Assembly: GCA_963965975.1 (NCBI GenBank)
Contig: OZ014421.1
Span: forward strand, 6,439,413 to 6,503,412
Origin: Xestospongia bergquistia
Taxonomy: Eukaryota > Porifera > Demospongiae > Haplosclerida > Petrosiidae
Reading direction: 5' to 3'
Length of the DNA stretch: 64,000 nt
Both the position numbers and the translations under genes were made by a program. The notes beneath the pieces were generated by a model. The model saw nothing but the letters and a program-made list of their open reading frames with translations. It had not been told where the DNA came from and searched no databases. Positions 1,722 to 34,774 of this stretch are shown piece after piece; the first letter of the stretch is position 1, and the number at the start of each line of letters is the position of its first letter.

Positions 1722-4700
1722 CTATAATTGACTCATCATTTTAGTACCAATGTCCTTTAAAGACTCATCAGTTTGTTCTAAAAGAAAATCACAGATTTTC
1801 TTTAGTAACTCAATTGGGTGTTCATCATCATCTATCTGTCTTTGTAGCTTCTCTACAATTATATCAGCTTTATCATATAGGTCAGTTGTATTCTTAATAT
1901 CTTCCTTAGCACATGTTGACAACAGATCAGCAGACACAAGTCTGTTAACAATACGATGAGGATTAGCATCGACAATTTTATCACAAAGATCAGCAGAATG
2001 AACTTGAAAGATTTTTGATGCATTAAATTTACCTGTATGATGTAATAAACATATACATTATCTTTCCATACTAAATTATAAACTTACCACTAACAGTGTT
2101 ATTGTCCTCTGTAATAGACACTGTAACACTTTTATTACTACCTATGTAGGGAATAGAATAGAACAATAAGTCCATTTAGAAATCATAGTGTAATTAGGTA
2201 CATGTTAAATAATATTATGGTCAGATAATTAAATTACCATCAGTTTGCTCATTAACTGTGTTCTTATCTGTTTGTACCACACTACCTATAAAATTACAAT
2301 ATAAAATGAACATAGTAAATATCAAATGTATATATGAAGTCTTTGTAGAGTCACATATAATGAAATGGTTAGCTAATGTTTATAATTACATTCTAGCTAG
2401 TAAGATGACTTGGTAGCTAGCTAACTCAGAAGTCAATTCTATTATATGTATAATACTTGTCTAAAGAATGACAATTAATACCAAAAACTATAGAAACAAA
2501 GTAGAGATGCACTGAGTAATTACTACATAAGTATATTTTAGCACTGCTAATTGTACTGTATGTAAGGATTGCTGTACATATTAGACATTAAACTCTAAGG
2601 TTTTATTAAGATTACATATTACTATCATATCTATTATATGTATATATACCTAATTGAGTATGAGGTGAAGTATTAGGTGGTGCTATTAATGGACCATCAG
2701 TTTCTAAACCTCCTGGTTCATTTTTTGAAAGAGGCACTGATGAAGGAGAGTGTAAACATTCCTGTGACACTTGATGAGCTTGAGAGGGTAATTTGTCTGT
2801 TTAAATAAAAGAAATAACATAATATTATTGATCAACTTATATCTCCTATGACAAGTAAATATCACTTGATATGTCAATGACACTACCTTTTAAAATGTAA
2901 GATTCAATTTTTTGGCTGACTTGAGTCTGTCCAACAATTTCACTCCTCACAGCAGTAATGATACTATCCCAAGTCACTTCTTTGTTTTCATTAATCCAAC
3001 ATTGTAATACTTTAGACAATCGTACAATATTATCTACATGTTCCTGTTGTAGACCTTCAAGCTCAGCATTAGGAACTCCCAGCGCTAATCCTATTTCATA
3101 CCACAGATGTTTGATACTAGCTAATAGTTCAAGAAGTTTATGTACATCTGGTGTTGAGTCAAGTGCACAACCTATATATGGACAATGATAAGTGAACTCA
3201 TACTATGTACAATGTTCATGAGCTAGTGTTCTGTTTTAACTAAGCTAACTTGGATCCCACAAACAATTAACAAGACAACATGACTATCTTATTAGATCAT
3301 TGTTGTTAGGAAAACTATATATGATACTCTCAAGGATTACTACATAACTAGTGAAAATTATTTTACAGACGTAATACTTGACAAATTGATCACTATGATT
3401 GTACCAAGTTCATACAAAATACTATTATTAATATCTATATTTTGGTATGCATAATATTTCTCAGCATACATGTGTAATTTTCTACTTTCTTACATGTCAA
3501 CATATAACAATGAATTTTGTAGTTTTTTAAAAAAAAAGAAACAAAGAAAATATTTATTTTACTCAAGACTGTCTACAACTACTATATCAATGACTAAACT
3601 ATTAACATACTCTATTATAAATATCATAATATATCAGTAACTACTGTTAGTGTTAAATGTGACTATAAGAAAGACTTCATATGTGTACTAACTAACAGTA
3701 AAATTGTTATTCTTTAATAAACTTGTGGTATGAGTAGTGAGTGAGTACATGAAATGTGATGAGTATGAGGGAATTTTATTATCTCCATATATGGTATTAT
3801 CATTAATATTGGGGATTTGTTAAAACAAGGAAATACTAATTGTCTACAACTAATGTATTATAAATAAATTATAATAAGTAAGTTACAAAGATTAAATACA
3901 TATCATCTTATTACTAGTTATTAAGTAATAACTTACTAACCTTGTTGTTCAATAGGTTTATCTGAACTAGTCATCTCTACAAGCCATGGTACTTGACGTG
4001 ACTGGTTAATATCAGCCATTAATGCATCGTCTTTACAACATGTTAGCTTCTTCTGATCTTCATTAGGACAACAAAGATGATCACTTGTAATTACTTCATG
4101 TATCGTACAATGAAAATACTCTTGAGGTATTGATAGAGTAAGTTTGTAATGGAACTTCTTAACAACAGCTTTGACTCCTTCTTTAACTGAATGTCTAATA
4201 ACACAACATTTGTTAGAAGGACCAGAGTAATAAATCTCTAGCCAGTAAATAGCATCAACTAATAGAACTGCACCTCCTGGACCAATACATTTCAAACGAA
4301 TAGCATTATGATATTGTGGATTACCAGATCCAAGATCAAAATGTGGTGAAGATTTGCGATTGAGAAGGTTGACGACCAAAGCAGGAAAGAGACCTTGAGG
4401 AAGTGACTTCATATCCCATGTCAAAATGAGAGGGTCTGTATTAGATGTAAAGATGGCTTTAGAACTTTCTGAGAGAGTAGAAGTAGGAAGGACACTTGGA
4501 AGAAAATACTTTCCTGGCTGAGGTAGAGATGCAATGATAAATACATCTTCCATTAACTTTAGAAAATCATCAATTGAAAATTCAGCAGAAAATCCTTGTG
4601 ATAAGCATGATTCCAGCAATCTCTTTTCAAAGGTTCCTTCATTCTTGAGTTGTTTGTGAGCTCCTGGAGGAAGACAGATGGCACACTCATCTTCTAAATG

Positions 4701-7279
4701 ATCCACAGCATCAGCAAAAGAGATACTGATCAACTCAGACAGTTTATCAAAAAGTGGCTGTGGATGTAGGAATACAACATTAGGGAGGACTTTGTGAAAG
4801 TAAAGGAAGATGGTCAGATCATGGTAATACTTCAGGGCTGCTTCAACATCATGAACATCCATCTTTAATGGTGTACCAATCTCCAAACATTTAGATTTGC
4901 TGATGATCATGGTATTATGGGTCTTGTGTAGTTGGTCTAAATCTAACTGGAACAAGAACCATCGAGCTGGAATTTCTGCTTCAATGTAAAACTGACATAT
5001 TCTGTTACGAATTATATTGGCCATTTTAACCTCATCATCTCCTCTACCAATAGCGTTGACTGGAAAGATGATCTTCTCTCTAGATTCACGATAATTTAGT
5101 CGTACCTCATCAAATCGTTTCAGAGTGGACCAAAGGATAGCATCTTTCTTATCCAGAGACTCACTACACTCACTAATCTTATCATAGTATGTCCCCAGTA
5201 CTATATGGTGAGGCTCAGTGTGGGAAAATTTGCTGTAAATGTTACGAAGATTAGGTGGATTTACAGATGATAGTGAACGAAATGATGCTTCAAGAAGTTG
5301 TAGGTGTGTCATCTGTCGTTCCACTGGCTCACCAATTTCTTTTCCTCTAACACTGAAGTAAAATTTGGGTTGATCTTCAAGCTTCTCATTTAACTTGAGT
5401 GTAAGAATGTTGATTGGATTATAATGTAGCAGAGCAGGAACAATATCTAAGAATGCAGCCTGACCTCCAGAATCTATAACATAGATCCAGTGAGTGTTAT
5501 AAAGCTCATCAGACTTTGATACAGTAGGTAATAGTTGAGCCACCTCTTCTCTTGCAGGAGAAAACGTAGTAGTAACTTCAGGGGTTTCTTTGATAGGTGT
5601 AGTCAATACAGGATTTTCATCACCTATATCGTCATCATCAGTGTCATCATCACCAGATTCATCACCATGTAAACTGTTCTCTACATCTTCTCCTTCTGAC
5701 ACTGATGGTTTACACTTGATACCTCCTTTCATCGTTCTAGTAACCATAGCTTTTAGAGACTCATAGTCTACCTTATCCCAACACTGAGTAGTAGATGAAC
5801 CAGTTGGTTCTCCTCCTGCTACAAGACCAGCAATCTCTACCTTCCTTACTTCAGGTGCTTTGATGACAGGAGTACTATGATGGTTGTCAGGTGGAGGTTC
5901 ATTGAGTAATAACTTGATAATAGAGGACTTTCCAGTAGCTGGTGCACCAGACAAGGTAAGTTTGGTCCATTTAACAGTGACATAGCCTTCATCAAGAGCT
6001 TTATCCAGTAAACCAGAATAATCTAATGATAATAATAATATAAGTTTCTATTATTATAATATTAATATACTTACCAGGTAATTCATCTTCATAGAAAAAG
6101 TAAACTTTACTTTTTAATTGTGACTCAACTTCAGGACATTGTGCTGTATATTTCCCACTACGACTAGATGTATGTGGAGGGTACAAGCTCAAAATTGTAG
6201 AAATTTCATTTGTCATTGATAGGAGGTCGGTGGTCTTTGATTTTAATTTGATAACCTTTTCTAAATGAAACACAAAATAGCATCCAGTGGTAAACTTTTT
6301 TTTACTAGAAGAATGTTCTTTTTGAGTTGCCCACATGATAAGTGTATCAGATCCAATTTTGTATGTAACAGGTGGAGGTAAACGTTGGTTTTCTAGACGA
6401 ATACAGTCAATAAAAAAAGTCTTTGGTTTTCCTTGAAGGGTAGGGCACTATTGTATTTTGTCTACTAGTTCATAGACATTAACATGTTTCTCATCACTAC
6501 ATTTTACATAGTGGTTATTACCTCCAGCAGCTGATATACAACAGACAAAACTGTCATAAGCTGTATGGTCCATAGTAGCTATCTCTTCTACTAGTTGTAT
6601 CATCTGTGAACTAGTAACTTTGTTATAAGAGCGAACTGTGTATTGTAAGTAGTTGAAAGTAGAGATGAAATTCTGAGTATTAAATTTACGACCTTTAAGC
6701 TCTCTACCATTCTCGTATTCTTCAATCACAATAACTAATGCAATACCATGTGGTCTGGCATTCATAGGATAAGCTGGTGTTGGTGTCTCTTTTATATCTT
6801 TAGAGTGACTGACTACATACTCCACTGGAAGGAAGACTCCATGTCCTTTAGGACAAGTAAAATATGTTTGATCAGCATAAGTACCACTAGGACGATGGTT
6901 GTCAGTAGAGACAGGAGTGTCCTGTGTAAATGACAATATAAATAATGTCCTTTACATAATTGATCAAACTTACTGTTTGTATTCCAGCAAATAAATGTGT
7001 ATCACTAATAGGAGGTAATGTTCCTAACCATCTTACAACACCAGCTATAACAGGATCTGAGACATCTGATAACCAAGGTTGACCTCTAGTTTCGAATCTT
7101 TTATCATCTTTGGTAACCATGTTAACATTATCAGCTGCATAGTTCCAAAATTCAGTTGGTATAGTAACTCTATCTCCTACAGAGAGGAGGATAGGTTCAT
7201 CAACATAAGGTAGAGAGACAGGTACAGATAATAGACTCTCCTGTCCTACAGCCCTTGCTACCTCGCTTGCTACAGCCAT
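1722..7279 (-). CDS. copy A: CAP-Gly / caspase-like / Roc-COR / Death / CARD protein, one premature stop
   Basis: Predicted exons (minus): 7279-6974, 6921-6075, 6022-3941, 3171-2887, 2796-2650, 2285-2238, 2141-2088, 2032-1722. They total 4,080 nt, or 1,359 residues if the internal stop is read through. The order is CAP-Gly (exon 1 and start of exon 2), caspase-like p20/p10 (exon 2), Roc GTPase with P-loop GAPATGKSS and G3 DSGGQ, then COR (exon 3), Death (exon 4), linkers (exons 5-7) and CARD (exon 8). The caspase-like region has SAAG where caspases have SHG, and FFIDCIR near the usual catalytic Cys. A TAG at 6448-6450 replaces the CAG found in B-E, just before the p10 part. Everything downstream stays in frame, so the lesion is recent, polymorphic or an assembly error. 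A likely role in cell-death or immune signalling is inferred from the domains. Confidence 0.8.
6448..6450 (-). other. in-frame TAG in copy A
   Basis: After VDKIQ the other copies read CAG (Gln); copy A reads TAG, a single C-to-T change. It would truncate the protein after p20, removing Roc, COR, Death and CARD. No splice sites that would remove it are evident. Confidence 0.85.
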
Positions 7280-7362
7280 ATCAATATTATCATAATAGAA
7301 TGCAATTATCTCTAATATTACAATTATATCAGGTAGGTGTAAAAAGAAGTTTCTTCTTATAG

Positions 7363-7615
7363 TTACATCATATTGACTATGATTCTTGTGGTCAAACCTC
7401 TGAAGAAAGAGAGGTATGGCTCAACAGTCATGAAGATGCTATAACAGCAATGAAGAAAGACAGAAGTCATATAGGTAATATTGTACTACAGTCTACAGTA
7501 TAAGATGATATATTATATAGGATCAAGATATGTTGAGTTATTTCTTCACTCTAAGTCATCTCCTGTTCAACAATACTCCTCATCAGTCATCACAAGTTCT
7601 TTCCTTCTTAATTAG
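7363..7615 (+). pseudogene. relic of the last two exons of a quasi-RRM (hnRNP H/F-like) gene, upstream of copy A
   Basis: Two exon-like blocks on the plus strand (7363-7474 and 7521-7615) are joined by a 46-nt GT..AG intron. They read through SHEDAITAMKKDRSHIG and then RYVELFLHS and end in a TAG. The pattern EDA..AM.KD...RYVELFL is typical of the end of the quasi-RRM in hnRNP H/F and GRSF1-type proteins. No upstream exons of such a gene are present, so this is a 3' fragment carried along with the tandem unit. This copy has no internal stop; the copies upstream of B, C and D do. Whether it is still spliced onto anything is unknown. Confidence 0.55.
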
Positions 7616-8622: not shown

Positions 8623-8658
8623 CATGTGTTCATGTAATATTATCAACTTACACTAGCT

Positions 8659-11600
8659 CTATAGTTGACTCATCATTTTAGTACCAATGTCCTTTAAAGA
8701 CTTGTCAGTTTGTTCTATAAGAAAGCCACAAATTTTCTTTAGTAACTCAATTGGGTGTTCATCATCATCTATCTGTCTTTGTAGTTTCTCTACAATTATA
8801 TCAGCTTTATCATATAGGTCAGTTGTACTCTTAACATCTTCCTTAGCACATGCTGACAACAATTTAGCAGAGACAAGTTTGTTAACAATACGATGAGGAT
8901 TAGCATCCGCAAGTATGTCACAAAGATCAGCTGAATGAATTTGAAAAACTTCAGATGGATTATATTTACCTGTAGATGTAATCAAACATATACATTACCT
9001 TTCCATACTAAATTATAAACTTACCACTAACAGTGTTATTGTCCTCTGTGATAGACTCATTAACACTTTTATTACTACCTATGTAGGGAATAGAATAGAA
9101 CAATAAGTCCATTTAGTAATCATAGTGTGATTAGACACATGTTAAGTAATATGGTCAGATAATTAAATTACCATCAGTTTGCTCATTAACTGTGTTCTTA
9201 TCTGTTTGTACCACACCACCTATAAAATTACAATATAAAATGAACATAGTATACATCAGTGTATATATGGTGTCTTTGTAGAGTCACATATAAAGAAAAT
9301 GATTAGTTAATATTTATAATTACATTCTAGCTAGTAAGATGGCTTGATAGCTAGCTAACTCAGAAGTCAATTCTATTATATGTATAGTACTTGTCTAAAG
9401 AATGACAATTAATACCAAAAATTATAGAAACAAGGTAGAGATACACTGAGTAATTACTACATAAGTATATTTTAGCACTGCTACTTCTATTGTAAATAGG
9501 GATTGCTCAGCTGTACACATCCTTACCCTAGATATTAAACTCTAAGGTTTTATTAAGGTTACATATTACTGTTGCATCTATTATATGTATATATACCTAA
9601 TTGAGTATGAGGTGAAGTATTAGATGGTGCTATTAATGGACCATCAGTTTCTAAACCTCCTGGTTCATTTTTTGAAAGAGGCACTGATGAAGGAGAGTGT
9701 AAACATTTCTGTGATACTTGATGAGGTTGAGAGGGTAATTTGTCTGTTTAAATAAAAGAAATAACACAATATTATTGATCAACTTATATCTCCTATGACA
9801 AGTGAATGTCACATGTCACTGACACTACCTTTTAAAATGTAAGATTCAATTTTTTGGCTGACTTGAGTCTGTCCAACAATTTTACTCCTCACAGCAGTAA
9901 TAATACTATCCCAAGTCACTTCTTTGTTTTCATTAATCCAACATTGTAATACTTTAGACAATCGTACAATATTATCTACATGTTCCTGTTGTAGACCTTC
10001 AAGCTCAGCATTAGGAACTCCCAGTGCTAATCCTATTTCATGCCACAGATGTTTGATACCAGCTAATAGTTCAAGAAGTTTATGTACATCTGGTGTTGAG
10101 TCAAGTACACAACCTATATAGGGACAATGATAAGTGAACTCACACTATATACAATGTTAATGAGCTAGTGCTCTGTTTTAACTAAGCTAACTTGGATCCC
10201 ACAAACAATTAACAAGACAACATGACTATCTTATTAGATCATTGTTGTTAGGAAAACTATATATGATACTCTCAAGGATTGCTACATAACTAGTGAAATT
10301 CATTTTACAGATGTAATACTTGACAAAGTGATCACTATGATTGTACCAAGTTCATACAAAATACTATTATTAATATCTATATTTTGGTATACATAATATT
10401 TCTCAGCATGCATGTGTAATTTTCTACTTTCTTACATGTCAACATATAACAATGAATTGTATAGTTTGAAAAAAAAACAAGTTATATTAATATTTTACTC
10501 AAGTCTATCTACAACTACTATATCAATGACTAAACGAGACAGCTAATAATTGTGGATGTGTCCATCATATTAATTATTCACAAGCAGCACACAAGACTTT
10601 GCTTAGATATAAATTGGGAAGTCATTCAAGAAACATTTATATAATTCATTTAAGCTGATATCTAATACAATACCACACACTGGTAATAGACTATTGTCAT
10701 GTACACCTGAGGTTTAATACAAGACTACCATCATATAATAAAGCTAACAATAGACAAAGTCTGTTGTCTATTATTTACTTTTTTAAGCAGGTTCTCAGTG
10801 GTAATGACAAACTAACTATCATTATAATTTGTTAGCTACTATATACTGCAGTGAGGATTTGGTACTTTTGTGCTTTTCATTTATTTAACAACTCGAAAGG
10901 TGTGTAATATAGTTAACTCATGATGTGAACGTTAGTATAATTGAACTTTACTACCTTATAGACCACCATTATATAACTATGAATAACTTTATATATTATG
11001 TAAAGATGGGTGGTTATTAAAAATTTATAAAGTGCTACAAATTAATTGTATTTTTCACCTTATTACATGACAACATATAACAATGAATTTGTAGAATTTG
11101 TAGTTTTAAACTTTGAACTTAGTAGTTTGAAAAAAAAGAAACAAAGAAAATATTTATTTTATTCAAGCCTACCTACAACTATTATATCAATGACTAAACT
11201 ATTAACATACTCTATTACAAATATCATAATATATCAGTAACTACTGTTAGTGTTAAATGTGACTATAAGAAATACTTCATATGTGTACTAACTAACAGTA
11301 AAATTGTTATTCTTTAATAAACTTGTGGTATGAGTAATGAGTGAGTATATGAAGTGTCATAAGTATGAGGGAATTTTATTATCTCCATATATGGTATTAT
11401 CATTAATATTGGGGATTTGTTAAAACAAGGAAATACTAATTGTCTACAACTAATGTATTATAAATAAATTAAGTTATAAAATAAATAAATAAATAAATAA
11501 ATTATAATAACTAAGTTACAAAGATTAAATACATATCATCTTATTACTAGTTATTAAGTGATAACTTACTAACCTTGTTGTTCAATAGGTTTATCTGAAC

Positions 11601-14600
11601 TAGTCATCTCTACAAGCCATGGTACTTGACGTGACTGGTTAATATCAGTTATTAATGCACCTTTCTCACAACATGTTAGCTTCTTCTGATCTTCATTAGG
11701 ACGACAAAGATGATTGCTTGTAGTTGCTTCATGCATTGTGCAATGAAAACGCTCTTGAGGTATTGATAGAGTAAGCTTGTATTGGAACTTCTTAACAACA
11801 GCTTTCACTCCTTCTTTAACTGAATGTCGAATAACACAACATTTGTTAGAAGGACCAGAGTAATAAATCTCTAACCAGTAAATAGCATCAACTAATAGAA
11901 CAGCACCTCCTGGACCAATACAGTCTAACTGGATAGCATTACGATATTGTGGATTACCAGATCCAAGATCAAATTGTGGTGAAGATTTTCGAGTGAGAAG
12001 GTTGACAACCAAAGCAGGAAAGAGACCTTGAGGAAGTGACTTCATATCCCATGTCAAAATGAGAGGGTCTGTATTAGATGTAAAGATGGCTTTAGAACTT
12101 TCTGAGAGAGTGGCAGTAGGAAGGACACTTGGAAGAAAATACTTTCCTGGCTGAGGTAGAGATGCAATAATAAATACATCTTCCATTAACTTTAGAAAAT
12201 CATCAATTGAAAATTCAGCAGAAAATCCTTGTGACAAGTATGATTCCAGCAATCTCTTTTCAAAGGTTCCTTCATTCTTGAGTTGTTTGTGAGCTCCTGG
12301 TGGAAGATAGATGGCACACTCCTCCTCTAAATGATCCACAGCATCAGCAAAAGAGATACTGATCAACTCAGACAGCTTATCAAAAAGTGGCTGTGGATGT
12401 AGGAACACAACATTAGGGAGGACTTTGTGAAAGTAAAGGAAGATGGTCAGATCATGATAATACTTTAGGGCTGCTTCAACATCATGAACATCCATCTTTA
12501 ATGGTGTACCAATCTCCAAACATTTAGATTTGCTGATGATCATGATATTATGGGTCTTGTGTAGTTGGTCTAAATCTAACTGGAACAAGAACCATCGAGC
12601 TGGAATTTCTGCTTCAATGTAAAACTGACATATTCTGTTACGAATTATATTGGCCATTTTAACCTCATTATCTCCTCTGCCAATTGCATTGACTGGAAAG
12701 ATGATCTTCTCTCTAGATTCACGATAATTTAGTCGCACCTCATCAAATCGTTTCAGAGTGGACCAAAGGATAGCATCTTTCTTATCCAGAGACTCACTAC
12801 ACTTACCAATCTCATCAAAGTATGTCCCCAGTACTATATGGTGAGGATCAGTGTGGGAAAATTTGCTGTAAATTTTACGAAGATTAGGTGGATTTACAGA
12901 TGATAGTGAACGAAATGATGCTTCAAGAAGTTGTAGGTGTGTCATCTGTCGTTCCACTGGCTCACCAATTTGTTTTCCTCTAACACTGAAGTAAAATTTG
13001 GGTTGATCTTCAAGCTTCTCATTTAACTTGAGTGTAAGAATGTTGATTGGATTATAATGTAGCAGAGCAGGAGCAATATCTAGGAATGCAGCCTGACCTC
13101 CAGAATCTATAACATAGATCCAGTGAGTGTTATAAAGTTCATCAGACTTTGATACAGTAGGTAATAGTTGAGCCACCTCTTCTCTTACTGGAGAACGTGA
13201 AGTGGGTAAGGAAGTAACTTCAGGGCTTTTTTTGGTAGGTGTGGTCAATACAGGATTTTCATGACCTATATCGTCATCATCAATATCATCATCACCAGAT
13301 TCATCACCCTGTAAACTGTTGTCTACATCTTCTCCTTCTGACACTGATGGTTTACACTTGATACCTCCTTTCATTGTTCTAGTAACCATAGCTTTTAGAG
13401 ACTCATAGTCTACCTTATCCCAACACTGGGTACTAGATGAACCAGTTGGTTCTCCTCCTGCTACAAGACCAGCAATCTCTACCTTCCTTACTTCAGGTGC
13501 TTTGATGACAGGAGTACTATGATGGTTGTCAGGTGGAGGTTCATTGAGTAGTAACTTGATAATGGAGGACTTTCCAGTAGCTGGTGCACCAGACAAGGTA
13601 AGTTTGGTCCATTTAACAGTGACATAACCTTCATCAAGAGCTTTATCCAGTAAACCAGAATAATCTAATGAAAACAATAATATAAGTTTCTATTATTATA
13701 ACATTAATATACTTACCAGGTAATTCATCTTCATAGAAAAAGTAAACTTTACTTTGTAATTGTGACTCAACTTCAGGGCATTGTGCTGAATATTTCCCAG
13801 TACGACTAGATTTATTTGGAGGGTACATACTCAAAATTGCAGATAATTCATTTGCCATTAAAAGGAGGTCAGTGGTCTTTGATTTCAATTTGATAACTTT
13901 TTCTAAATAAAACACGAAATAGCTTTCAATAGTACGTGAATTTTTTCTAAAAGCATGTTTCTTTTGTGCTGCCCACATGATGAGTGTATTGGATCCAACT
14001 TTGTATGGTATACATGGAGGCCCATGTGGATTTTCAGAACGATCACAGTTAATGAAAAAAAACTTTGGCTTTCCTTGAAGTGTAAAACACTGTTGTATTT
14101 TGTCTACTAGTTCATAGACATTTACACCTTTGTGATCACTACACTGTACATAGTGATCATTGCATCCAGGGGCTGATATACAACAGACGAAGCTGTCATA
14201 AGCTGAGTGATCCATACTAGCTATCTCTTCTACCTGTTGTATCATCTGTGAACTAGTAACATCAGTATAAGGTTGAACTGTGTATTGTAAATGCTTGAAA
14301 GCAGAGATGAAATTCTCTCTATCAAATGATTCTCTGATCTTTCTACCATCTGAGTATTCCTCAATCACCATAACTAATGCAATACCGTGTGGTCTGGCAT
14401 TCATAGGATAAGCTGGTGTTAGTGGATTTTTAGAGTGACAGACTACATACTCCACTGGAAGGAAGACTCCATGTCCTTTAGGACAAGTAAAATAAGTCTG
14501 ATCACCATAAGTACCACTAGGACCATGGTTGTCAGTAGAAACAGGACTGTTCTGTGTAAATAAGAATTTGCATATAAATAACGTCCTTTGATAATTGATC

Positions 14601-14908
14601 AAACTTACTGTTTGTATTCCAGCAAATAATTGTGTATCACTAATAGGAGGTAATGTTCCTAACCATTTTACAACACCAGCTATAACAGGATCTGAGACAT
14701 CTGATAACCAGGTCTGACCTCTATTGCTACTCTTAAGCTTACTAACCACGTTAACACAATCAGCTGCAAAGTTCCAAGATTCAGTTGGTATAGTAACTCT
14801 ATCTCCTACAGAGAGGAGGATAGGTTCATCAACATAAGGTAGAGAGACAGGTACAGATAATAGACTCTCCTGTCCTGCAGCCCTTGCTATCTCGCTCGCT
14901 ACAGCCAT
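8659..14908 (-). CDS. copy B: intact CAP-Gly / caspase-like / Roc-COR / Death / CARD protein
   Basis: Predicted exons (minus): 14908-14609, 14551-13717, 13664-11574, 10113-9829, 9743-9597, 9219-9172, 9078-9025, 8969-8659; 4,071 nt, 1,356 residues. Approximate residues: CAP-Gly 30-137 (GVVKWLG; DQTYFTCPKGHGVF resembles CYLD CAP-Gly domains); caspase-like 152-375 (GIALVMVIEEY, DSFVCC, GKPKFFF). The dyad His is lost (SAPG for SHG), and a Cys lies in FINCDR, one residue short of the usual position. Roc starts near 400 (GAPATGKSS), has an acidic insert, DSGGQ near 560 and GTYFD as the G4-like motif. COR runs to about 1,000. Death is about 1,080-1,170 and CARD about 1,260-1,350. Translation begins at MAVASE, shared by all copies. 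The first intron (57 nt) is stop-free and in frame, so its retention would add 19 residues. Signalling role inferred. Confidence 0.85.
10534..11061. other. insertion inside the COR-Death intron of copy B, flanked by a duplicated intron segment
   Basis: Copies A, C, D and E lack this block of about 530 bp. The intron sequence on its left (about 10,431-10,533) is repeated on its right (about 11,062-11,204), including the A-rich stretch and the CTACAACTA..TATATCAATGACTAAAC segment. This looks like an insertion with a flanking duplication or a partial tandem duplication. No coding frame or terminal inverted repeat was recognised. A short AAAT microsatellite lies nearby at about 11,480-11,505. Confidence 0.55.
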
Positions 14909-21734: not shown

Positions 21735-22003
21735 AGTATTATTATATATAATAATACACTAGTATTGTTAGTATTATTGTATATAATAATACACTAGTAT
21801 TGTTAGCATCATTGTATATAATAATACACTAGTATTGTTAGTATTATTGTATTCAATAATACACTAGTATTGTTAGTATTATTGTATATAATAATATTGT
21901 TAGTATTATTGTATATAATAATACACTAGTATTGTTAGTATTATTGTATATAATAATACACTAGTATTGTTAGTATTATTGTATATTATAATACACTAGT
22001 ATT
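21735..22003. repeat. 35-bp minisatellite, about eight units
   Basis: Tandem units beginning AGTATTATTGTATATAATAA and ending CACTAGTATTGTT; one unit is shortened and others carry single changes. Each unit contains a small inverted repeat around TATTATTGTATATAATAATA. Unit number differs between spacers (1, 2, about 8, 1), so it has grown after duplication. Confidence 0.8.
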
Positions 22004-22185
22004 ATTACAAGATTGTGATCATTTAATAGAGAAATCACATGTCAACTATTTCTAGTACATTTTATTGAGTTATTAACTCAATACACAACAAAGAAAGTAA
22101 TTATTATAAATTTAATTTATTTAATTTACTTTAAACATTATAGATGTTATGTGTGTTCATGTAATATTATCAACTTACACTAGCT

Positions 22186-25100
22186 CTATAGTTGACTCAT
22201 CATTTTAGTACCAATGTCCTTTAAAGACTTGTCAGTTTGTTCTAAAAGAAATCCACAAATTTTCTTTAGTAACTCAATTGGGTGTTCATCATCATCTATC
22301 TGTCTTTGTAGTTTCTCTACAATTATATCAGCTTTATCATATAGATCAGTTATATTCTTAACATCTTCCTTAGTACATGTTGACAACAATTTAGCAGAGA
22401 CAAGTTTGTTAACTATACGATGAGGATTAGCATCCGCAAGTATGTCACAAAGATCAGCAGAATGAATTTGAAAAACTTCAGATGGACCTATATGATGTAA
22501 TCAAACATATACATTACCTTTCCATACTAAATTTATAAACTTACCACTAACAGTGTTATTGTCCTCTGTAATAGACTCATTAACACTTTTATTACTACCT
22601 ATGTAGGGAATAGAATAGAACAATAAGTCCATTTAGTAATCATAGTATAATTAGGTACATGTTAAATAATATGGTCAGAAAATTAAATTACCATCAGTTT
22701 GCTCATTAACTGTGTTCTTGTCTGTTTGTACCACACCACCTATAAAATTACAATATAAAATGAACATAGTATATATCAAATGTATATATGAAGTCTTTGT
22801 AGAGTCACATTTATACCTATAATGAAAATGGTTAGTTAATATTTATAATTACATTCTAGCTAGTAAGATGACTTAGTAGCTAGCTAACTCAGAAGTCATT
22901 CTATTATATGTATAGTACTTGTCTAAACAATGGTAATTAATACCAAAAACTATAGAAACAAGGTAGAGGGATACACTGAGTAAATACTACATAAGTATAT
23001 TTTAGCACTGCTACTTGTACTGTATATAGGGATTGCTGTATGTATTAGACATTAAACTCTAAGGTTTTATTAAGGTTACATATTACTGTCATATCTATTA
23101 TATGTATATATACCTAATTGAGTATGAGGTGAAGTATTAGATGGTGCTATTAATGGAACATCAGTTTCTAAACCTCCTGGTTCATTTTTTGAAAGAGGCA
23201 CTGATGAAGGGTCATGTAAACATTCCTGTGACACTTGATGAGCTTGAGAGGGTAATTTGTCTGTTTAAATAAAAGAAATAACACAATATTATTGATCAAC
23301 TTATATCTCCTATGACAAGTAAATATCACTTGATATGTCACTAGCATTACCTTTTAAAATGTAAGACTCAATTTCTTGGCTGACTTGAGTCTGTCCAACA
23401 ATTTTACTCCTCATAGCAGTAATGATACTATACCAAGTCACTTCTTTGTTTTCATTAATCCAACATTGTAATACTTCAGACAATCGTACAATATTATCTA
23501 CATGTTCCTGTTGTAGACCTTTAAGCTTAGTATTAGGAACTCCCAGCGCTAATCCTATTTCATGCCACTGATGTTTGATACCAGCTAATAGTTCAAGAAC
23601 TTTATGTACATCTGGTGGTGAGTCAAGTACACAACCTATATATGGACAATGATAAGTGAACTCATACTATGTACAATGTTAATGAGCTAGTGTTCTGTTT
23701 TAACTAAACTAACTTGGACCCCACAAATAATTAACAAGACAACATGACTATCCTATTTAGATTATTGTTGTTAAGACAACAATATATGATACTCACAAGG
23801 ATTACTACATAACTAGTGAAATTCATTTTACAGACGTAATACTTGACAAAGTGATCACTATGATTGTGCCAAGTTATAAGAAACTACTATTATTAATATC
23901 TATCTGTTGGTATGTATGAATATTTCTTAGCATACACAATTTCTACCTTCTTACATGACAAAATATAAACAATGAATTTTGTAGTTTGAAAAAAAAACAA
24001 GTAATATTAATATTTTACTCAAGTCTAACTACAACTACTATATCAATGACTTAACTATTAGTATACTCCAATATATGTGACCTGATTTGCAAAAAGGGAC
24101 CACTTCTGTCAAAACATCTGTGACTTGACTTTTGAACAAACTACTGTTAAAACATCTCAAACATCTCAGTTTTGTATACATACAGTTGATACATATGCAT
24201 AACTATTCTACAAGTATGTAAAACTGTTTATTGTTATGTTTTAACAGTGTGTTTTTCACAAATCAGGTCACAAATGTTGTGACAGTAGTGGTCCCTTTTT
24301 TTGCAAATCAGGTCACATATATATCACAGTATACCAGAAACCACTCATAGTATTAAATGCTCTAAGAAAGACTTCATATGTGTACTGACTAACAGTAAAA
24401 TTTTTATTCTTTAATAAACTTGTGGTATGAGTAATGAGTGAGTACATGAAGTGTGATGAGTATAAGGGAATTTTATTATCTCCATATATGGTATTATTAT
24501 TAATATTGGGGATTTATTAAAACAAGGAAATACTAATTGTCTACAACTAATGTATTATAAATAAATTATAATAACTAAGTTACAAAGATTAAACACACAT
24601 CATCTTATTACTAGTTATTAAGTAATAACTTACTAACCTTGTTGTTCAGTAGGTTTATCTGAACTAGTCATCTCTACAAGCCATGGTACTTGACGTGACT
24701 GGTTAATATCAGTCATTAATGCATTGTCTTTACAACATGTTAGCTTCTTCTGATCTTCATTAGGACAACAAAGATGATCACTTGTAATTACTTCATGTAT
24801 CGTACAATGAAAATACTCTTGAGGTATTGATAGAGTAAGTTTGTAATGGAACTTCTTAAAAACAGCTTTGACTCCTTCTTTAACTGAATGTCGAATAACA
24901 CAGCATTTGTTAGAAGGACCAGAGTAATAAATCTCTAACCAGTAAATAGCATCAACTAATAGAACAGCACCTCCTGGACCAATACATTTCAAACGAATAA
25001 CATTACGATATTGTAGATTGCCAGATGATGAAGACTCAAGATCAAATCGTGGTGAAGATTTGCGATTGAGAAGGTTGACAACCAAAGCAGGAAAAAGACC

Positions 25101-27985
25101 TTGAGGAAGTGACTTCATATCCCACGTCAAAATCAGAGGGTCTGTATTAGATGTAAAGATGGCTTTAGAACTTTCTGAGAGATTAGAAGTAGAAAGGACA
25201 CTTGGAAGAAAATACTTTCCTGGCTGAGGTAGAGATGCAATGATAAATACATCTTCCATTAATTTTAAAAAATCATCAATCGAAAATTCAGCAGAAAATC
25301 CTTGTGACAAGCATGATTCCAGCAACCTCTTTTCAAAGGTTCCTTCATTCTTGAGTTGTTTGTGAGCTCCTGGAGGAAGGAAGATGTTACACTCATCCTC
25401 TAAATGATCCACAGCATCAGCAAAAGAGATACTGATCAACTCAGACAGCTTATCAAAAAGTGGCTGTGGATGTAGGAATACAACATTAGGGAGGACTTTG
25501 TGAAAGTAAAGGAAGATGGTCAGATCATGGTAATACTTCAAGGCTGCTTCAACATCATGAACATCCATCTTCAATGGTGTACCAATCTCTAGGCATTTAG
25601 ATTTGCTAATGATCATGGTATTATGGATCTTGTGTAATTGGTCTAAATCTAACTGGAACAAGAACCATCGAGCTGGAATTTCTGCTTCAATGTAAAACTG
25701 ACATATTCTGTTACGAATTATATTGGCCATTTTAACCTCATAATCTCCTCTACCAATTGCATTGACTGGAAAGATGACCTTCTCTCTAGATTCACGATAA
25801 TTTAGTCGTACCTCATCAAATCGCTTCAGAGTGGACCAAAGGGTAGCATCTTTATCATCCAGAGACTCACTACACTCACTAATCTTATCATAATATGTCC
25901 CCAGTACTATATGGTGAGGTTCAGTGTGGGAAAATTTGCTGTAAATGTTACGAAGATTAGGTGAATTTACAGATGATAGTGAACGAAATGATGCTTCAAG
26001 AAGTTGTAGGTGTGTCATCTGTCGTTCCACTGGCTCACCAATTTGTTTTCCTCTAACACTGAAGTAAAATTTGGGTTGATCTTGAAGTTTCTCATTTAAC
26101 TTGAGTGTAAGAATGTTGATTGGATTATAATGTAGCAGAGCAGGAGCAATATCTAGGAATGCAGCCTGACCTCCAGAATCTATAACATAGATCCAGTGAG
26201 TGTTATAAAGCTCATCAGACTTTGATACAGTAGGTAATAGTTGAGCCACCTCTTCTCTAGCTGGAGAAAGTTGAGTAGTAATTTGAGGGTTTTCTTTAGT
26301 AGGTGTGGTCATGATCAATGCATAATCTATATCGTCATAATCAGCATCATCATCACCAGATTCATCAGTCTCCTGTAAACTGTTGTCTACATCTTCTCCT
26401 TCTGATACTGATGGTTTACACTTAATAACTCCTTTCATTGTTCTAGTAACCATAGCTTTTAGAGACTCATAGTCTACCTTATCCCAACATTGGGTACTAG
26501 ATGAACCAGTTGGTTCTCCTCCTGCTACAAGACCAGCAATCTCTACCTTTCTTACTTCAGGTGCTTTGATAACAGGAGTACTATGATGGTTGTCAGGTGG
26601 AGGTTCATTGAGTAGTAACTTAATAATAGAGGACTTTCCAGTATCTGGTGCACCAGACAAGGTAAGTTTGGTCCATTTAACAGTGACATAGCCTTCATCA
26701 AGAGCTTTATCCAGTAAACCAGAATAATCTAATGAAAATAATAATAATATAAGTTTCTATTATTATAACATTAATATATTTACCAGGTAATTCATCTTCA
26801 TAGAAAAAGTAGACTTTCCTTTTTAATTGTGACTCAACTTCAGGACATTGTGCTGAATATTTCCCAGTACGACTAGATTTATGTGGAGGGATCATGCTCA
26901 AAATTGTAGATACTTCATTTGTCATTGAAAGGAGGTCAGTGGTCTTTGATTTTAATTTGATAATCCTTTCTAAATAAAACAAGACATGGGACCCAATGAC
27001 ACGTGAACTCATTCTAAGAGTGTGTCTCTTTTGAGTTGCCCACATGATAAGTGTGTCAGAACCAATCTTATATGGAATAGAGGGAGGTGCATCTGGATTA
27101 GGTAGTCGATTATTTGAAATGAAAAATAGCTTTGGTTTCTTTTCAAGTGTAGGACACTGTTGTACTTTGTCTACTAGTTCATAGACATTAACATGTTTGT
27201 TATCACTACATTTTACATAGTGGTCATTACCTCCAGCAGCTGATATACAACAGACAAAGCTGTCATAAACTGTATGATCCATAGTAGCTATCTCTTCTAC
27301 TAGTTGTATCATCTGTGAACTAGTAACATTGGTATAAGGTTGAACTGTGTATTGTAAGTAGTTGAAAGTAGAGATGTAGGTCTGAATATCACGTTCACCT
27401 ACTTCACGCTTTCTACCATCCTTGTATTCTTCAATCACCATAACTAATGCAATACCATGTTGTCTGGCATTCATAGGATAAGCTGGTGTTGGTGTCTCTT
27501 TAGAGTGACAGACTACATACTCCACTGGAAGGAAGACTCCATGTCCCTCAGGACAAGTAAAATAAGTCTGATCAGCATAGGAACCACTAGGACCATGGTT
27601 GTCAGTAGAAACTGGAGTGTCCTATGTAAACGATAATTTGTATATAAATAATGTCCTTTACATAATCAATCAAGCTTACTGTTTGTATTCCAGCAAATAA
27701 TTGTGTATCACCAACAGGAGGTAATGTTCCTAACCATCTTACAACACCAGCTATAACAGGATCTGAGACATCTGACAACCAGGGCTGACCTCTCTCCTTC
27801 AAACTGATAGCTTTCTTATCAATCACGTTAACACTATCAGTTGTATAGTTCCAAAATTCAGTTGGTATAGTAACTCTATCTCCTACAGAGAGGAGGATAG
27901 GTTCTTCAACATAAGGTAGAGAGACAGGTACAGATAATAGACTCTCCTGTCCTGCAGCCCTTGCTACCTCGCTCGCTACAGCCAT
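22186..27985 (-). CDS. copy D: intact CAP-Gly / caspase-like / Roc-COR / Death / CARD protein, no dyad Cys
   Basis: Predicted exons (minus): 27985-27680, 27621-26784, 26728-24638, 23635-23351, 23260-23114, 22739-22692, 22598-22545, 22487-22186; 4,071 nt, 1,356 residues. The domain order is that of copy B. The caspase-like part has SAAG for SHG and FFISNNR where the other copies have a Cys, so both expected catalytic residues are missing. The P-loop reads GAPDTGKSS (Asp for Ala), which still fits GxxxxGK[ST]. Intron 2 uses a GTAAAT donor instead of GTAAGT. I chose MAVASE as the start because it is shared by all copies, although the frame opens 9 codons further upstream. The COR-Death intron holds a MITE. 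Signalling role inferred. Confidence 0.85.
24076..24317. mobile_element. hairpin MITE in the COR-Death intron of copy D
   Basis: About 242 bp with perfect 36-bp terminal inverted repeats starting TGTGACCTGATTTGCAAAAA. Homology between the arms continues imperfectly to about 85 bp, so the element can fold as a long hairpin. The flanking TATA steps are compatible with a TA target duplication. It has no coding capacity and is absent from the same intron position in A, B, C and E. Confidence 0.8.
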
Positions 27986-28086
27986 ATCACTATTATCATA
28001 AATAGAATGCAATTATCTCTAATATTACAATTACTCATATTAGGTAGGTGTAGTATATTTTCTCAAAAATAACTTTCTTCTTACAG

Positions 28087-28985: not shown

Positions 28986-31900
28986 CTATAGTTGACTCAT
29001 CATTTTAGTACCAATGTCCTTTAAAGACTTGTCAGTTTGTTCTAAAAGAAAGCCACAAATTTTCTTTAGTAACTCAATTGGGTGTTCATCATCATCTATC
29101 TGTCTTTGTAGTTTCTCTACAATTATATCAGCTTTATCATATAGGTCAGTTGTACTCTTAACATCATCCTTAGTACATGTTGGTAACAATTTAGCAGAGA
29201 CAAGTTTGTTAACAATACGATGAGGATTAGCATCCGCAAGTATGTCACAAAGATCAGCAGAATGAATTTGAAAAACTTCAGATGGACCTGTATGATGTAA
29301 TCAAACATATACATTACCTTTCCATACTAAATTTATAAACTTACCACTAACAGTGTTATTGTCCTCTGTAATAGACTCACTAACACTTTTATTACTACCT
29401 ATGTAGGGAATAGAATAGAACAATAAGTCCATTTAGTAATCATAGTGTAATTAGGTACATGCTAAGTAATATGGTCAGATAATTAAATTACCATCAGTTT
29501 GCTCATTAACTGTGTTCTTGTCTGTTTGTACCACACCCCCTATAAAATTACAATATAAAATGAACATAGTATACATCAAATGTATATATGAAGTCTTTGT
29601 AGAGTCACATTTATACCTATAATGAAAATGGTTAGTTAATGTTTATAATTACATTTTAACTAGTAAGATGGCTTAGTAGCTAGCTAACTCAGAAGTCATT
29701 CTATTATATGTATGGTACTTGTCTGATGAATGGTAATTAATACCAAAAATTATAGAAACAAGGTAGAGGGATACACTGAGTAATTACTACATAAGTACAT
29801 TTTAGCACTGCTACTTCTATTGTAAATAGGGATTGCTCAGCTGTACACATCCTTACCCTAGATATTAAACTCTAAGGTTTTATTAAGGTTACATATTACT
29901 GTCATATCTATTATAGGTATATATACCTAATTGAGTATGAGGTGAAGTATTAGATGGTGCTATTAATGGAACATCAGTTTCTAAACCTCCTGGTTCATTT
30001 TTTGAAAGAGACACTGATGAAGAGTTGTGTAAACATTCCTGTGACACTTGATGAGGTTGAGAGGGTAATTTGTCTGTTTAAATAAAAGAAATAACACAAT
30101 ATTATTGATCAAGTCTTATCTCCTATGACAAGTGAATGTCACTTGATATGTCAATGACACTACCTTTAAAAACATAAGATTCAATTTCTTGGCTGACTTG
30201 AGTCTGTCCAACAATTTTACTCCTCACAGCAGTAATAATACTATACCAAGTCACTTCTTTGTTTTCATTAATCCAACATTGTAATACTTTAGACAATCGT
30301 ACAATATTATCTAAATGTTCCTGTTGTAGACTTTCAAGCTCAGCATTAGGAACTCCCAGTGCTAATCCTATTTCATACCATAGATGTTTGATACCAGCTA
30401 ATAGTTCAAGAAGTTTATGTAGATCTGGAGTTGAGTCAAGTGCACAACCTATATATGGACAATGATAAGTGAACTCATACTATGTACAATGTTTATGAGC
30501 TAGTGCTCTGTTTTAACTAAACTAACTTGAATACCACAAATAATTAACAAGACAACATGACTATCCTATTTAGATTATTGTTGTTAAGAGAAAATTATAT
30601 ATATGTGACCTGATTTGCAAAAAGGGACCACTTCTGTCAAAACATTTGTGACCTGACTTTTGAACAAACTACTGTTAAAACATCTCAAACATCTCAGTTT
30701 TGTATACATACAGTTGCTATATATGCATAACTATTCTACATGTATGCAAAACTGTTTATTGTTATGTTTTAACAGTGTGTTTTTCACAAATCAGGTCACA
30801 AATGTTGTGACAGAAGTGGTCCCTTTTTGCAAATCAGGTCACATATACATTCTCAAGGATTGCTACATAACTAGTGAAATGTATTTTATAGATGTAATAC
30901 TTGACAAAGTGATCACTATGATTATACTGTGAGTTCATACAAAATACTATTATTAATATCTATCTTTTGGTATGTATGAATATTTCTCAGTATGCATAAT
31001 TTTCTACCTTCTTACATGACAACATATAACAATAAATTTTGCAGTTTGAAAAAAAGAAACAAAGAAAATATTTATTTTACTCAAGACTGTCTACAACTAC
31101 TATGCCAATGACTAAACTATTAATATACTCCATTACAAAACATTATACCACATCAGTGACCACTCATAATGTTAAATGTGACTCTAAGAAAGACTTCATG
31201 TGTAAAATTGTTATTCTTTAATAAACTTGTGGTATGAGTAATGGAGTGAGTACATGAAGTGTGATGAGTATGAGGGAATTTTATTATCTCCATATATGGT
31301 ATTATCATTAATATTGGGGATTTGTTAAAACAAGGAAATACTAATTGTCTACAACTAATGTATTATAAAATAAATTATAATAACTAGGTTACAAAGATTA
31401 AATACATATCATCTTATTACTAGTTATTAAGTGATAACTTACAAACCTTGTTGTTCAATAGGTTTATCTGAACTAGCCATTGCTACAAGCCATGGTACTT
31501 GACGTGACTGGTTAATATCAGTTATTAATGCACCTTTCTCACAACATGTTAGTTTCTTCTGATCTTCATTAGGACAACAAAGATGATCACTTGTTTTATG
31601 TATCATACAATGAAAACACTCTTGAGGTATTGATAGAGTAAGTTTGTATTGGAACTTCTTAACAACACCTTTGACTCCTTCTTTAATTGAATGTCGAATA
31701 ACACAACATTTGTTAGAAGGACCAGAGTAATAAATCTCTAGCCAGTAAATAGCATCAACTAATAGAACAGCACCTCCTGGACCAATACAGTCTAACTGGA
31801 TAGCATTACGATATTGTGGATTACTAGATTCAAGATCAAATTGTGGTGAAGATTTCCGAGTGAGAAGGTTGACAACCAAAGCAGGAAAGAGACCTTGAGG

Positions 31901-34774
31901 AAGTGACTTCATATCCCACGTCAAAATCAGAGGGTCTGTATTAGATGTAAAGATGGCTTTAGAACTTTCTGAGAGAGTAGCAGTAGGAAGGACACTCGGA
32001 AGAAAATACTTTCCTGGCTGAGGTAGAGATGCAATAATAAATACATCTTCCATTAACTTCAGAAAATCATCAATTGAAAATTCAGCAGAAAATCCTTGTG
32101 ATAAGCATGATTCTAGCAATCTCTTTTCAAAGGTTCCTTCATTCTTGAGTTGTTTGTGAGCTCCTGGAGGAAGATCAATATCACACTCCTCCTCTAAATA
32201 ATCCATAGCATCAACAAAAGAGATACCGATCAACTCAGACAGCTTATCAAAAAGTGGCTGTGGATGTAGGAATATAACATTAGGGAGGACTTTGTGAAAG
32301 TAAAGGAAGATAGTCAGATCATGGTAATACTTCAGGGCAGCTTCAACATCTTGAACATCCATCTTTAATGCTGCACCAATCTCTAAGCATTTAGATTTGC
32401 TAATGATCATGATATTATGGATCTTGTGTAGTTGGTCTAATCTAACTGGAACAAGAACCATCTAGCTGGGATTTCTGCTTCAATGTAAAACTGACATATC
32501 TTACGACGAATTATATTGGCCATTTTAACTTCATCATCTCCTCTGCCAATTGCATTGATTGGAAAGATGACTTTCTCTCTACCTTCACGATAATTTAGTC
32601 GTACATCATCAAATCGCTTCAGAGTGAACCAAAGGATAGCATCTTTATCATCCAGAGACACACTACACTCACTAATCTTATCATAGTATGTCCCCAGTAC
32701 TATATGGTGAGGCTCAGTGTGGGAAAATTTGCTGTAAATGTTACGAAGATTAGGTGGATTTACAGATGATAGTGAACGAAATGATGCTTCAAGAAGTTGT
32801 AGGTGTGTCATCTGTCGTTCCACCGGCTCACCAATTTCTTTTCCTCTAACACTGAAGTAAAATTTGGGTTGATCTTCAAGCTTCTCATTTAACTTGAGTG
32901 TAAGAATGTTGATTAGATTATAATGTAGCAGAGCAGGAGCAATATCTAAGAATGCAGCCTGACCTCCAGAATCTATAACATAGATCCAGTGAGTGTTATA
33001 AAGCTCATCAGACTTTGATACAATAGGTAATAGTTGAGCCACCTCTTCTCTTGCAGGAGAAAATGGAGTAGTAACTTCAGGGGTTTCTTTGGTAGGTGTG
33101 GTCAATACAGGATTTTCATTATCTTTATCATCATCATCAGTATCATCATCACCAGATTCATCAGTCTCCTGTAAACTGTTGTCTACATCTTCTCCTTCTG
33201 ATACTGGTGGTTTACACTTAATACCTCCTTTCATTGTTCTAGTAACCATAGCTTTTAGAGACTCATAGTCTACCTTATCCCAACACTGGGTACTAGATGA
33301 ACCGCTTGGTTCTCCTCCTGCTACAAGACCAGCAATCTCTACCTTCCTTACTTCAGGTGCTTTGATGACAGGAGTACTATCATGGTTGTCAGGTGGAGGT
33401 TCATTGAGTAGTAACTTGATAATAGAGGACTTTCCAGTAGCTGGTGCACCAGACAAGGTAAGTTTGGTCCATTTAACAGTGACATAGCCTTCATCAAGAG
33501 CTTTATCCAGTAAACCAGAATAATCTAATGAAAATAATAATATAAGTTTCTATTATTATAACATTAATATACTTACCAGGTAATTCATCTTCATAGAAAA
33601 AGTAGACTTTACTTTTTAATTGTGACTCAACTTCAGGACATTGTGCTGTATATTTCCCACTTTGACCATGACGTCTAGACATATATGGAGGGTACATACT
33701 CAAAATTGTAGATACTTCATTTGTCATTGAAAGGAGGTCAGTGGTCTCTGATTTTAATCTGATAACCTTTTCTAAATAAAACACAAAATAGCTTCCAATA
33801 GTACGTGATTTTTTTTTAAAAGTATTTCTCTTTTGAGTTGCCCACACAATGAGTGTATCAGATCCAACTTTGTATGGTATACTTGGAGGCACACGTGGAT
33901 TTTCTAAACGATCACAGTTAATGAAAAAAATCTTTGGTTTTCCTTGGAGGGTAAAACACTGTTGTATTTTGTCTACTAGTTCATAGATATTAACATATTT
34001 GTAATCACTACATTTTACATAGTGGTTATTGGTTCCAGCAGCTGATATACAACAAACAAAGCTGTCATAAGCTGTGTGATCCATACTAGCTATCTCTTCT
34101 ACTAGTTGTATCATCTGTAAACTAGTAACTTTGTTATAAGGTTGAACTGTGTATTGTAAGTGCTTGAAAGTAGAGATGAAATTCTGACTATCAATTGTAA
34201 GTCCTCCAGTCTTGCTACCACTTCTGTATTCTTCAATTACCATAATTAATGCAATACCATGTGGTCTGGCATTCATAGGATAAGCTGGTGTTGGTGTCTC
34301 TTTTATATCTTTAGAGTGACTGACTACATACTCCACTGGAAGGAAGACTCCGTGTCCTTCAGGGCAAATAAAATAAGTCTGATCACCATAAGTACCACTA
34401 GGATAATAGTTGTCAGTAGAAACAGGAGTGTCCTAAGTAAACAAGTGTTATTATAAATGTATACTCATGAACAAGCTTACTGTTTGTATTCCAGCAAATA
34501 ATTGTGTATCACCAACAGGAGGTAATGTTCCTAACCATCTTACAATACCAGTGATAATGGGATCTGAGACATTTGATAACCAAGGTTGATCTTTAGTTTT
34601 ATTACTAATGCTATCATTAACACTATCAGCTGCATAGTTCCAAAATTCAGTTGGTATAGTAACTCTATCTCCTACAGAGAAGAGGATAGGTTCTTCAACA
34701 TAAGGTACAGAGACAGATACAGATAATAGACTCTCTTGTCCTGCAGCCCTTGCTACTTCGCTAGCTACAGCCAT
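28986..34774 (-). CDS. copy E: CAP-Gly / caspase-like / Roc-COR / Death / CARD protein, one frameshift
   Basis: Predicted exons (minus): 34774-34481, 34432-33577, 33524-31447, 30448-30164, 30073-29927, 29539-29492, 29398-29345, 29287-28986. The total is 4,064 nt, one base short of whole codons. A single A is missing near 32,439 (TCTAAATCTAAC in the others, TCTAATCTAAC here). This shifts the frame in the COR region after RWFLFQLD; the frame then runs on intact in the next phase. The caspase-like part has SAAG and FFINCDR, and the P-loop is GAPATGKSS. The exon 3 donor is GTTTGT where others have GTTAGT. This is the only copy without the quasi-RRM relic upstream; it abuts SPG11 head to head. It may be a recent pseudogene or carry a sequencing error. 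Confidence 0.78.
30604..30843. mobile_element. hairpin MITE in the COR-Death intron of copy E
   Basis: About 240 bp, the same family as at 24,076 (terminal TGTGACCTGATTTGCAAAAA and its complement), with a few substitutions between the two. It lies at a different position in the homologous intron, so it is an independent insertion. TA-rich flanks; no coding capacity. Confidence 0.8.

Follow-up and report, generated by a model that had tools for sequence, protein, structure and literature searches.

A 64,000-nucleotide stretch of the genome of the sponge Xestospongia bergquistia (the window; C11:6439413-6503412 of a 146 Mb genome in 21 contigs) carries five tandem copies of one gene, all on the minus strand, between window positions 1722 and 34774. 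We read these as part of a tandem array of Roco-type signalling genes, each predicted to encode a CAP-Gly domain, a pseudocaspase, a Roc-COR module, a Death domain, a linker and a CARD-like tail in a protein that would serve as an NLR-like scaffold, and we give this reading as a whole about an even chance of being correct. That the CAP-Gly domain, the caspase fold and the Roc-COR module are encoded as one chain is strongly supported by the structure of the genes and by their recurrence in the genome. If the whole is one chain, it would unite in a single molecule a GTPase switch, a pair of death folds and a caspase fold, which known pathways mostly distribute over separate proteins.

The copies are named c1 to c5 along the window, c1 having the lowest coordinates, and L-numbers denote other loci read in the same genome; copy coordinates are window positions. 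The first-pass annotation of this DNA described a five-copy array at 1722 to 34774. Both the number and the limits hold, as there are five minus-strand repeats with matching GT-AG introns, c5 begins with its start codon at 34774 and the model of c1 runs down to 1722. The exon model of c4 (exons of 306, 838, 2091, 285, 147, 48, 54 and 302 nucleotides (nt), 1356 residues without a stop) was carried onto the other four copies by DNA alignment. Every intron of all five models is GT-AG, at matching places between copies, with the first junction in phase 0 and all others in phase 1. The eight exons of the annotation were found in c1, c2, c4 and c5, but c3 has seven, consisting of exons 1 to 5 followed by different 3' exons. 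The exons, from c5 to c1, are:

34481-34774, minus strand: c5 exon 1, N-terminal half of CAP-Gly
33577-34432, minus strand: c5 exon 2, C-terminal half of CAP-Gly and probable pseudocaspase (Pfam Peptidase_C14, E 8.9e-23)
31447-33524, minus strand: c5 exon 3, Roc-COR, frameshifted
30164-30448, minus strand: c5 exon 4, Death
29927-30073, 29492-29539 and 29345-29398, minus strand: c5 linker exons 5, 6 and 7
28986-29287, minus strand: c5 exon 8, tail A
27680-27985, minus strand: c4 exon 1, N-terminal half of CAP-Gly with ATG
26784-27621, minus strand: c4 exon 2, C-terminal half of CAP-Gly and probable pseudocaspase (Peptidase_C14, E 3.9e-21; catalytic positions changed)
24638-26728, minus strand: c4 exon 3, Roc-COR
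23351-23635, minus strand: c4 exon 4, Death (Pfam Death 25.6 bits, cut-off 22.6)
23114-23260, 22692-22739 and 22545-22598, minus strand: c4 exons 5, 6 and 7
22186-22487, minus strand: c4 exon 8, tail A
20674-20979, minus strand: c3 exon 1
19770-20616, minus strand: c3 exon 2, C-terminal half of CAP-Gly and probable pseudocaspase
17624-19717, minus strand: c3 exon 3, Roc-COR
16575-16859, minus strand: c3 exon 4, Death
16338-16484, minus strand: c3 exon 5
16040-16048, minus strand: c3 junction within an intron between array-like and tail-B-like sequence
15671-15985, minus strand: c3 tail B exon, CARD-like (CARD E 0.0022, below cut-off)
15607-15620, minus strand: c3 last exon with stop (tail B)
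14609-14908, minus strand: c2 exon 1
13717-14551, minus strand: c2 exon 2, C-terminal half of CAP-Gly and probable pseudocaspase
11574-13664, minus strand: c2 exon 3, Roc-COR
9829-10113, minus strand: c2 exon 4, Death
9597-9743, 9172-9219 and 9025-9078, minus strand: c2 exons 5, 6 and 7
8659-8969, minus strand: c2 exon 8, tail A
6974-7279, minus strand: c1 exon 1
6075-6921, minus strand: c1 exon 2, with an in-frame stop at 6448-6450
3941-6022, minus strand: c1 exon 3, Roc-COR (COR-A 35.6 bits, cut-off 35.3)
2887-3171, minus strand: c1 exon 4, Death
2650-2796, 2238-2285 and 2088-2141, minus strand: c1 exons 5, 6 and 7
1722-2032, minus strand: c1 exon 8, tail A

Three of the five copies are intact, c2, c3 (open over 1335 residues) and c4 each forming a single open frame. 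The exons sum to whole codons in c1 to c4, which agrees with the four copies of the annotation, but c1 is interrupted by the premature stop in exon 2; the sum fails in c5, where exon 3 has a frameshift and the upstream frame stops at 32437. Compared in bins of 100 alignment columns, most identities between copies lie at 86-100% for the Roc-COR and Death exons, and those of exon 2 at 67-99%. Synonymous divergence (dS) is greater in exon 2 (0.17-0.30) than in exon 3 (0.09-0.12), which fits less homogenisation of exon 2. The full array has 14 copies of exon 2 over approximately 98 kb (C11:6375560-6473844, minus strand), and the window shows the last five.

A search of the genome with exon 2 gave 63 rows, of which 37, representing 36 loci (one is in two pieces), include or complete the CAP-Gly part. 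We dropped 25 caspase-only rows, including C11:6709817 (L037) and C9:122883 (L039), and one short row matching the CAP-Gly half at C2:5376437. The 36 loci comprise the 14 copies of the array, six plus-strand loci on C11 (6283349-6340048), 14 on C12 and two on C13. At 35 of them, on three contigs, the CAP-Gly/caspase part is followed by Roc-COR; this was determined by same-strand coordinates at 34 (two via COR-A only, one partial) and by reading the locus at C13:2286840 (L038), while at C12:5542678 no Roc-COR follows among the matches listed. The spacing between the exon 2 and Roc-COR matches is 55-58 nt across the array. Identity of exon 2 to c4 declines to 48% in L034 and 39% in L038, and the domain order is still kept at 39-64%. 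Junctions match in most of those read at L033-L036 and L038, the exon 2 donors of L034 and L036 not having been located and L033 having been paired with the wrong copy for its exon 1-2 junction. Chance open reading frames were rejected as an explanation on the strength of the GT-AG introns at matching places in five copies and the 36 loci.

The CAP-Gly domain is interrupted by intron 1, and its score in c4 rises from 22.1 bits for exon 2 alone to 39.8 bits when spliced (Pfam cut-off 26.5); spliced c2 and L033 score 38.7 and 35.6 bits. Three features strongly support a single chain from CAP-Gly to Roc-COR: a domain split by an intron, the shortness of intron 2 (52-55 nt in each window copy, corresponding to the 55-58 nt between matches) and the recurrence of the order at all but one of the 36 loci. 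End-binding CAP-Gly domains carry the motif GKNDG, which is absent from four aligned copies, where TDNHGPSG or similar stands at that place. The nearest types are all weak matches, CAP350 (E 0.0016), CLIP-170 (0.0068), dynactin (0.011) and CYLD (0.015). The annotation had called the domain CYLD-type (the CAP-Gly of CYLD is the subject of PMC8511506); this designation is not supported, as CYLD ranks last of these.

The caspase fold of exon 2 is clear (Pfam E 1.1e-18 in c2). Pfam matched a caspase in all 11 members of the exon 2 alignment, two of which are reference caspases, and the PDB matches of c4 exon 2 include caspase-3 (E 5.2e-13) and the CASP8-and-FADD-like regulator 3h11_A (E 5e-7). The caspase-like domain of the annotation is therefore upheld as a fold but very probably not as a protease, as the canonical catalytic His and Cys are both changed at all 23 CAP-Gly/caspase loci read, of the 36 counted. 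Neither residue is at its canonical place in any of the 20 loci L009-L028, and both are likewise lost in L034, L036 and L038. The reference caspases of the same genome L037, L039 and L073-L078 (L073 being the same as L074) keep the [ST]HG His and the QAC Cys, and L081 has SHG and QSC. Given this loss at 23 of 23 loci, the caspase of this family is very probably dead, that is, a pseudocaspase. Near L037, two further loci (L079 and L080, C11:6713400-6719900) form a second caspase-fold pair without the canonical catalytic motifs.

For the annotated Roc-COR module the main support comes from profile-profile comparison. A GxxxxGKS P-loop (GAPATGKSS, in c4 GAPDTGKSS) and a DSGGQ motif (DxxG) are present in all five window copies, with an acidic insert of variable length between them. 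In the alignment of eight Roc-COR exons the P-loop is kept by six members and COR-A is matched by Pfam in seven (best E 3.5e-10), the scores straddling the cut-off of 35.3 with 35.6 bits in c1 and 34.4 in c4. Profile-profile comparison (hhalign) with clear Roc-COR genes of the same genome gave a probability of 98.3 and an E value of 1.7e-14. A PDB search with the module gave no convincing match, and a scan of the genome_contigs collection with the Roc-COR alignment gave no relative. A Roc domain with P-loop and DxxG followed by COR is what places a protein among the Roco family, and on these motifs and profiles the array protein belongs there. Relatives of the Roc-COR exon occur at 52-61% on C1, C2, C3, C4 and C9 (64 of 620 candidates being scored), not beside exon 2 matches, and the genome has at least 146 COR-A matches. 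Four other Roc-COR relatives had no CAP-Gly/caspase in the 4.2-4.7 kb at and upstream of their start, as judged from frames of at least 90 residues. One further locus, L087 (C3:256000-260400), has a frame that is Death-like by eye, together with other frames, upstream of a Roc-COR gene without CAP-Gly/caspase, and is perhaps another domain order on the same switch.

On its bounded exon the Death domain passes the Pfam cut-off of 22.6 in c4 and c2 (25.6 and 22.8 bits) and also in L033 (29.7) and L036 (30.0), and the best PDB match of the Death profile is the Death domain of FADD (E 2.8e-4); the score is only 19.8 bits when the full c4 chain is scanned. The last exons are of two types, tail A and tail B, both of which are CARD-like and below the Pfam cut-off; in c3, tail B gave a CARD match with E 0.0022 and 18.4 bits versus a cut-off of 23.9. 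Over the 14 array copies tail A was found in seven, tail B in three and a B-like tail in one, with three not assigned. Relatives of these exons lie on many contigs, with at least 150 matches for tail A, mainly on C6, and at least 138 for tail B, mainly on C1, C3, C5 and C10, pointing to a very large death-fold repertoire in this genome. Tail B also follows Roc-COR on C2, C3 and C4.

The tails have moved between loci. The similarity of c3 to c2, c4 and c5 (90-93%) stops at 16034-16040, and its similarity to loci on C3, C4 and C14 (77-83%) starts at 16047-16048. In c4, similarity to five tail-A loci on C6 (main piece 75-86%) has its start within 22789-22602; the intron immediately before this (23037-22818) is a 76% match to L064, a tail-B locus on C3. 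The Death region of L035 has 90-91% DNA identity with the array, though its exon 2 is only 64% identical in protein. Because similarity switches partner loci at points within introns in c3 and c4, and because of this contrast in L035, we conclude from the alignments that back-end modules carrying death folds have been moved between loci and gene families, with limits within introns. We also considered a mobile tail cassette with fixed borders, since the c3 junction seemed fixed with three outside loci; this was not upheld, as 13 further tail-B loci vary in their left limit of similarity and L064 shares the upstream intron too. The original tail may thus have been B, together with that intron, and tail A may have come later. 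Pfam gave no match in the stretch upstream of one C6 tail gene. Downstream of the c4 tail exon lies a 35-nt minisatellite of eight copies (21735-22007), into which the similarity between c4 and the C6 tail-A loci extends, and similar repeats stand behind those loci.

In the function that we propose, the CAP-Gly/pseudocaspase front end would bind a partner or ligand, Roc-COR would be a nucleotide-gated switch operated by GTP, and the Death and CARD-like domains would recruit downstream adaptors. The protein would then work like an NLR or an apoptosome component, possibly in immunity, its pseudocaspase being used for binding instead of proteolysis. The variation of exon 2 over the 14 copies bears on this proposal. 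Amino-acid diversity is 0.45 in the groove loops L1-L4, which line the substrate groove of caspases, and 0.19 in the remaining caspase domain, an excess that one of 218 circular shifts attains, and the ratio of nonsynonymous to synonymous substitution (dN/dS) is 1.28 in the loops versus 0.49 outside them and 0.34 in the CAP-Gly half. By these comparisons the excess variation of the loops is clear and the caspase fold is under purifying selection. Positive selection on the loops was not upheld: the ratio of 1.28 is not significantly greater than 1 (bootstrap 90.3%, the interval including equality), the loop borders follow caspase-3 numbering and were set after windowed dN had been inspected, and controls lean alike. 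Among control pairs of other caspases, all five likewise show more differences in the loop columns, which there take in the inter-subunit linker, than in the rest (10/91 vs 13/154, 11/94 vs 12/154, 42/79 vs 59/154, 45/89 vs 64/154 and 4/64 vs 2/151 residues).

A dead caspase could instead pair with an active one and restrain or tune death signalling as an inhibitor or decoy, instead of sensing a ligand. c-FLIP, a caspase fold without activity in death signalling, pairs with caspase-8. The loss of the canonical catalytic positions in a fold under purifying selection, the match to 3h11_A and the caspases with intact motifs in the same genome all suit such a role. However, to our knowledge c-FLIP has only DEDs and neither a GTPase nor a CAP-Gly domain, its likeness to the array protein being the inactive caspase fold, and recognition of varied partners would account at least equally well for the size of the array and the variation of the groove loops; we regard an inhibitor as somewhat unlikely. 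A bolder form of the scaffold proposal is that an animal lineage has its own NLR-like receptor class built on a Roc-COR switch, in which the former substrate groove would be a variable recognition face and recombination within introns would swap the output tails, giving new pairings of recognition and output. We think it rather improbable in this full form. The array itself offers a case in which to test the conversion of a protease fold to a binding module and the passage of output domains from one receptor family to another.

Several results weigh against the scaffold reading. Two of the five window copies, c1 and c5, are broken. At L009-L028, 13 of 20 loci keep a Cys one position ahead of the canonical Cys, and all 20 keep a His four positions behind the canonical His; their persistence means that sequence alone leaves room for protease activity, a caveat to our rejection of an active protease as the likely reading. 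Pfam Roc has no match in the window exons, and the hhalign alignment covers the module only from near DSGGQ onward. The annotated Death domain, found above the cut-off in c4 and c2, falls just below it in c1 (22.4 bits), c3 (22.3) and c5 (22.3) and clearly below in L035 (17.6), and neither of two exons in L034 that align with the Death exon at 38-39% is recognised as Death by Pfam. The annotated C-terminal CARD is sub-threshold throughout, with CARD-like matches at E <=1 in eight of 12 tails (best 8.9e-5) but none reaching the cut-off, and a PDB search with tail A gave nothing convincing. Lastly, in c1-c4, L033, L035, L036 and L038 exon 3 runs into a stop at its donor (EQQG-stop or similar), and some transcripts, or all of them, may therefore encode a protein that ends at this point.

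This stop is what would be expected if there were two genes or isoforms, the CAP-Gly/pseudocaspase/Roc-COR protein ending after exon 3 and the Death/tail part belonging to a second gene or to a less common splice form, and the length of intron 3 (764-1460 nt, versus intron 2) points the same way. A stop at this place is expected anyway, though, because a phase-1 G/GTTAG donor (exon/intron) spells GGT TAG, and c5 reads one codon past it while L034 reads on. In c1-c5 no ATG precedes the domain in the open frame of the Death exon, which must therefore be joined to a coding exon further upstream. Behind Roc-COR in L033, L035 and L036 there is likewise a same-strand Death exon, with the aligning exons in its place in L034, and tail B stands behind Roc-COR on other contigs. 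Two genes thus seem unlikely, and compatible phase and recurrence support one polypeptide across the junction between Roc-COR and Death, which would require one mRNA over exons 3-8; an isoform ending at the exon 3 stop is possible. The annotation's single chain accordingly stands firmly as far as Roc-COR and less so from there to Death and CARD.

That the array is duplication noise, decaying and of little function, with loop variation caused by relaxed constraint, is very improbable: the two broken copies, the loop ratio not significantly above 1, the lean of the five control pairs and a pairwise dN/dS of 0.48-4.03, mostly near 1, in exon 1 would fit it, but exon 2 is open in 13 of the 14 array copies, the Roc-COR exon has a pairwise dN/dS of 0.27-0.45 in c1-c4 (counts in the Death exon are too few to judge) and the domain order persists in the diverged loci.

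The annotation knew of no described protein with this order, and our literature search for the domain combination found none either, although most subscription papers were outside its scope and the absence is weak evidence; descriptions do exist of parts of the combination, namely Roc-COR joined to Death and, in bacteria, Roc-COR joined to caspase. DAPK1-type Roco proteins have the order kinase-ankyrin-Roc-COR-Death. The array protein shares with them Roc-COR followed by Death (AP-GTPase/COR in PMC8195603) and differs in its CAP-Gly and pseudocaspase front, its CARD-like tail and its tandem array, a Pfam scan of the c4 chain giving no kinase or ankyrin match. Among bacterial conflict proteins, AP-GTPase (Roc)-COR is likewise linked to a caspase fold as one of several effectors, but there the effector is C-terminal and LRRs are N-terminal, whereas the array protein has its caspase fold at the N-terminal end, with the canonical catalytic positions lost; the same source describes TRADD-N expansions with Death-like domains in Amphimedon (PMC8195603). 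Sea anemone genes combine Roc-COR with TIR or Death, and one of them, NG3 (kinase, Roc/COR, Death, TIR, SH3), is a comparable lineage-specific Roc-COR and Death fusion in an early-branching animal, with TIR and kinase where the array protein has CAP-Gly, pseudocaspase and a CARD-like tail (PMC5094078). Sponge NLRs are also expanded, death-fold-coupled nucleotide-switch proteins, and one figure legend names COR and CASc among their domains (PMC12909245), but they use NACHT and LRR where the array protein uses Roc-COR and CAP-Gly/pseudocaspase. Scanned against Pfam at E <=0.5, the c4 chain gave neither NACHT nor LRR, so by domain content the array protein is not an NLR. If the proposal is true, the known repertoire of non-NACHT nucleotide switches in animals would be widened.

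Elsewhere in the window, both domains of arginyl-tRNA-protein transferase (ATE1) occur in a 539-residue frame at 39793-41412 (minus strand). Also on the minus strand, at 55860-57838 and 61129-63126, two series of frames resemble one another; each match MACPF (E 8e-6 and 4e-5) and ApeC, the apextrin C-terminal domain (E approximately 1e-67), and they are putative perforin-like genes beside the array.

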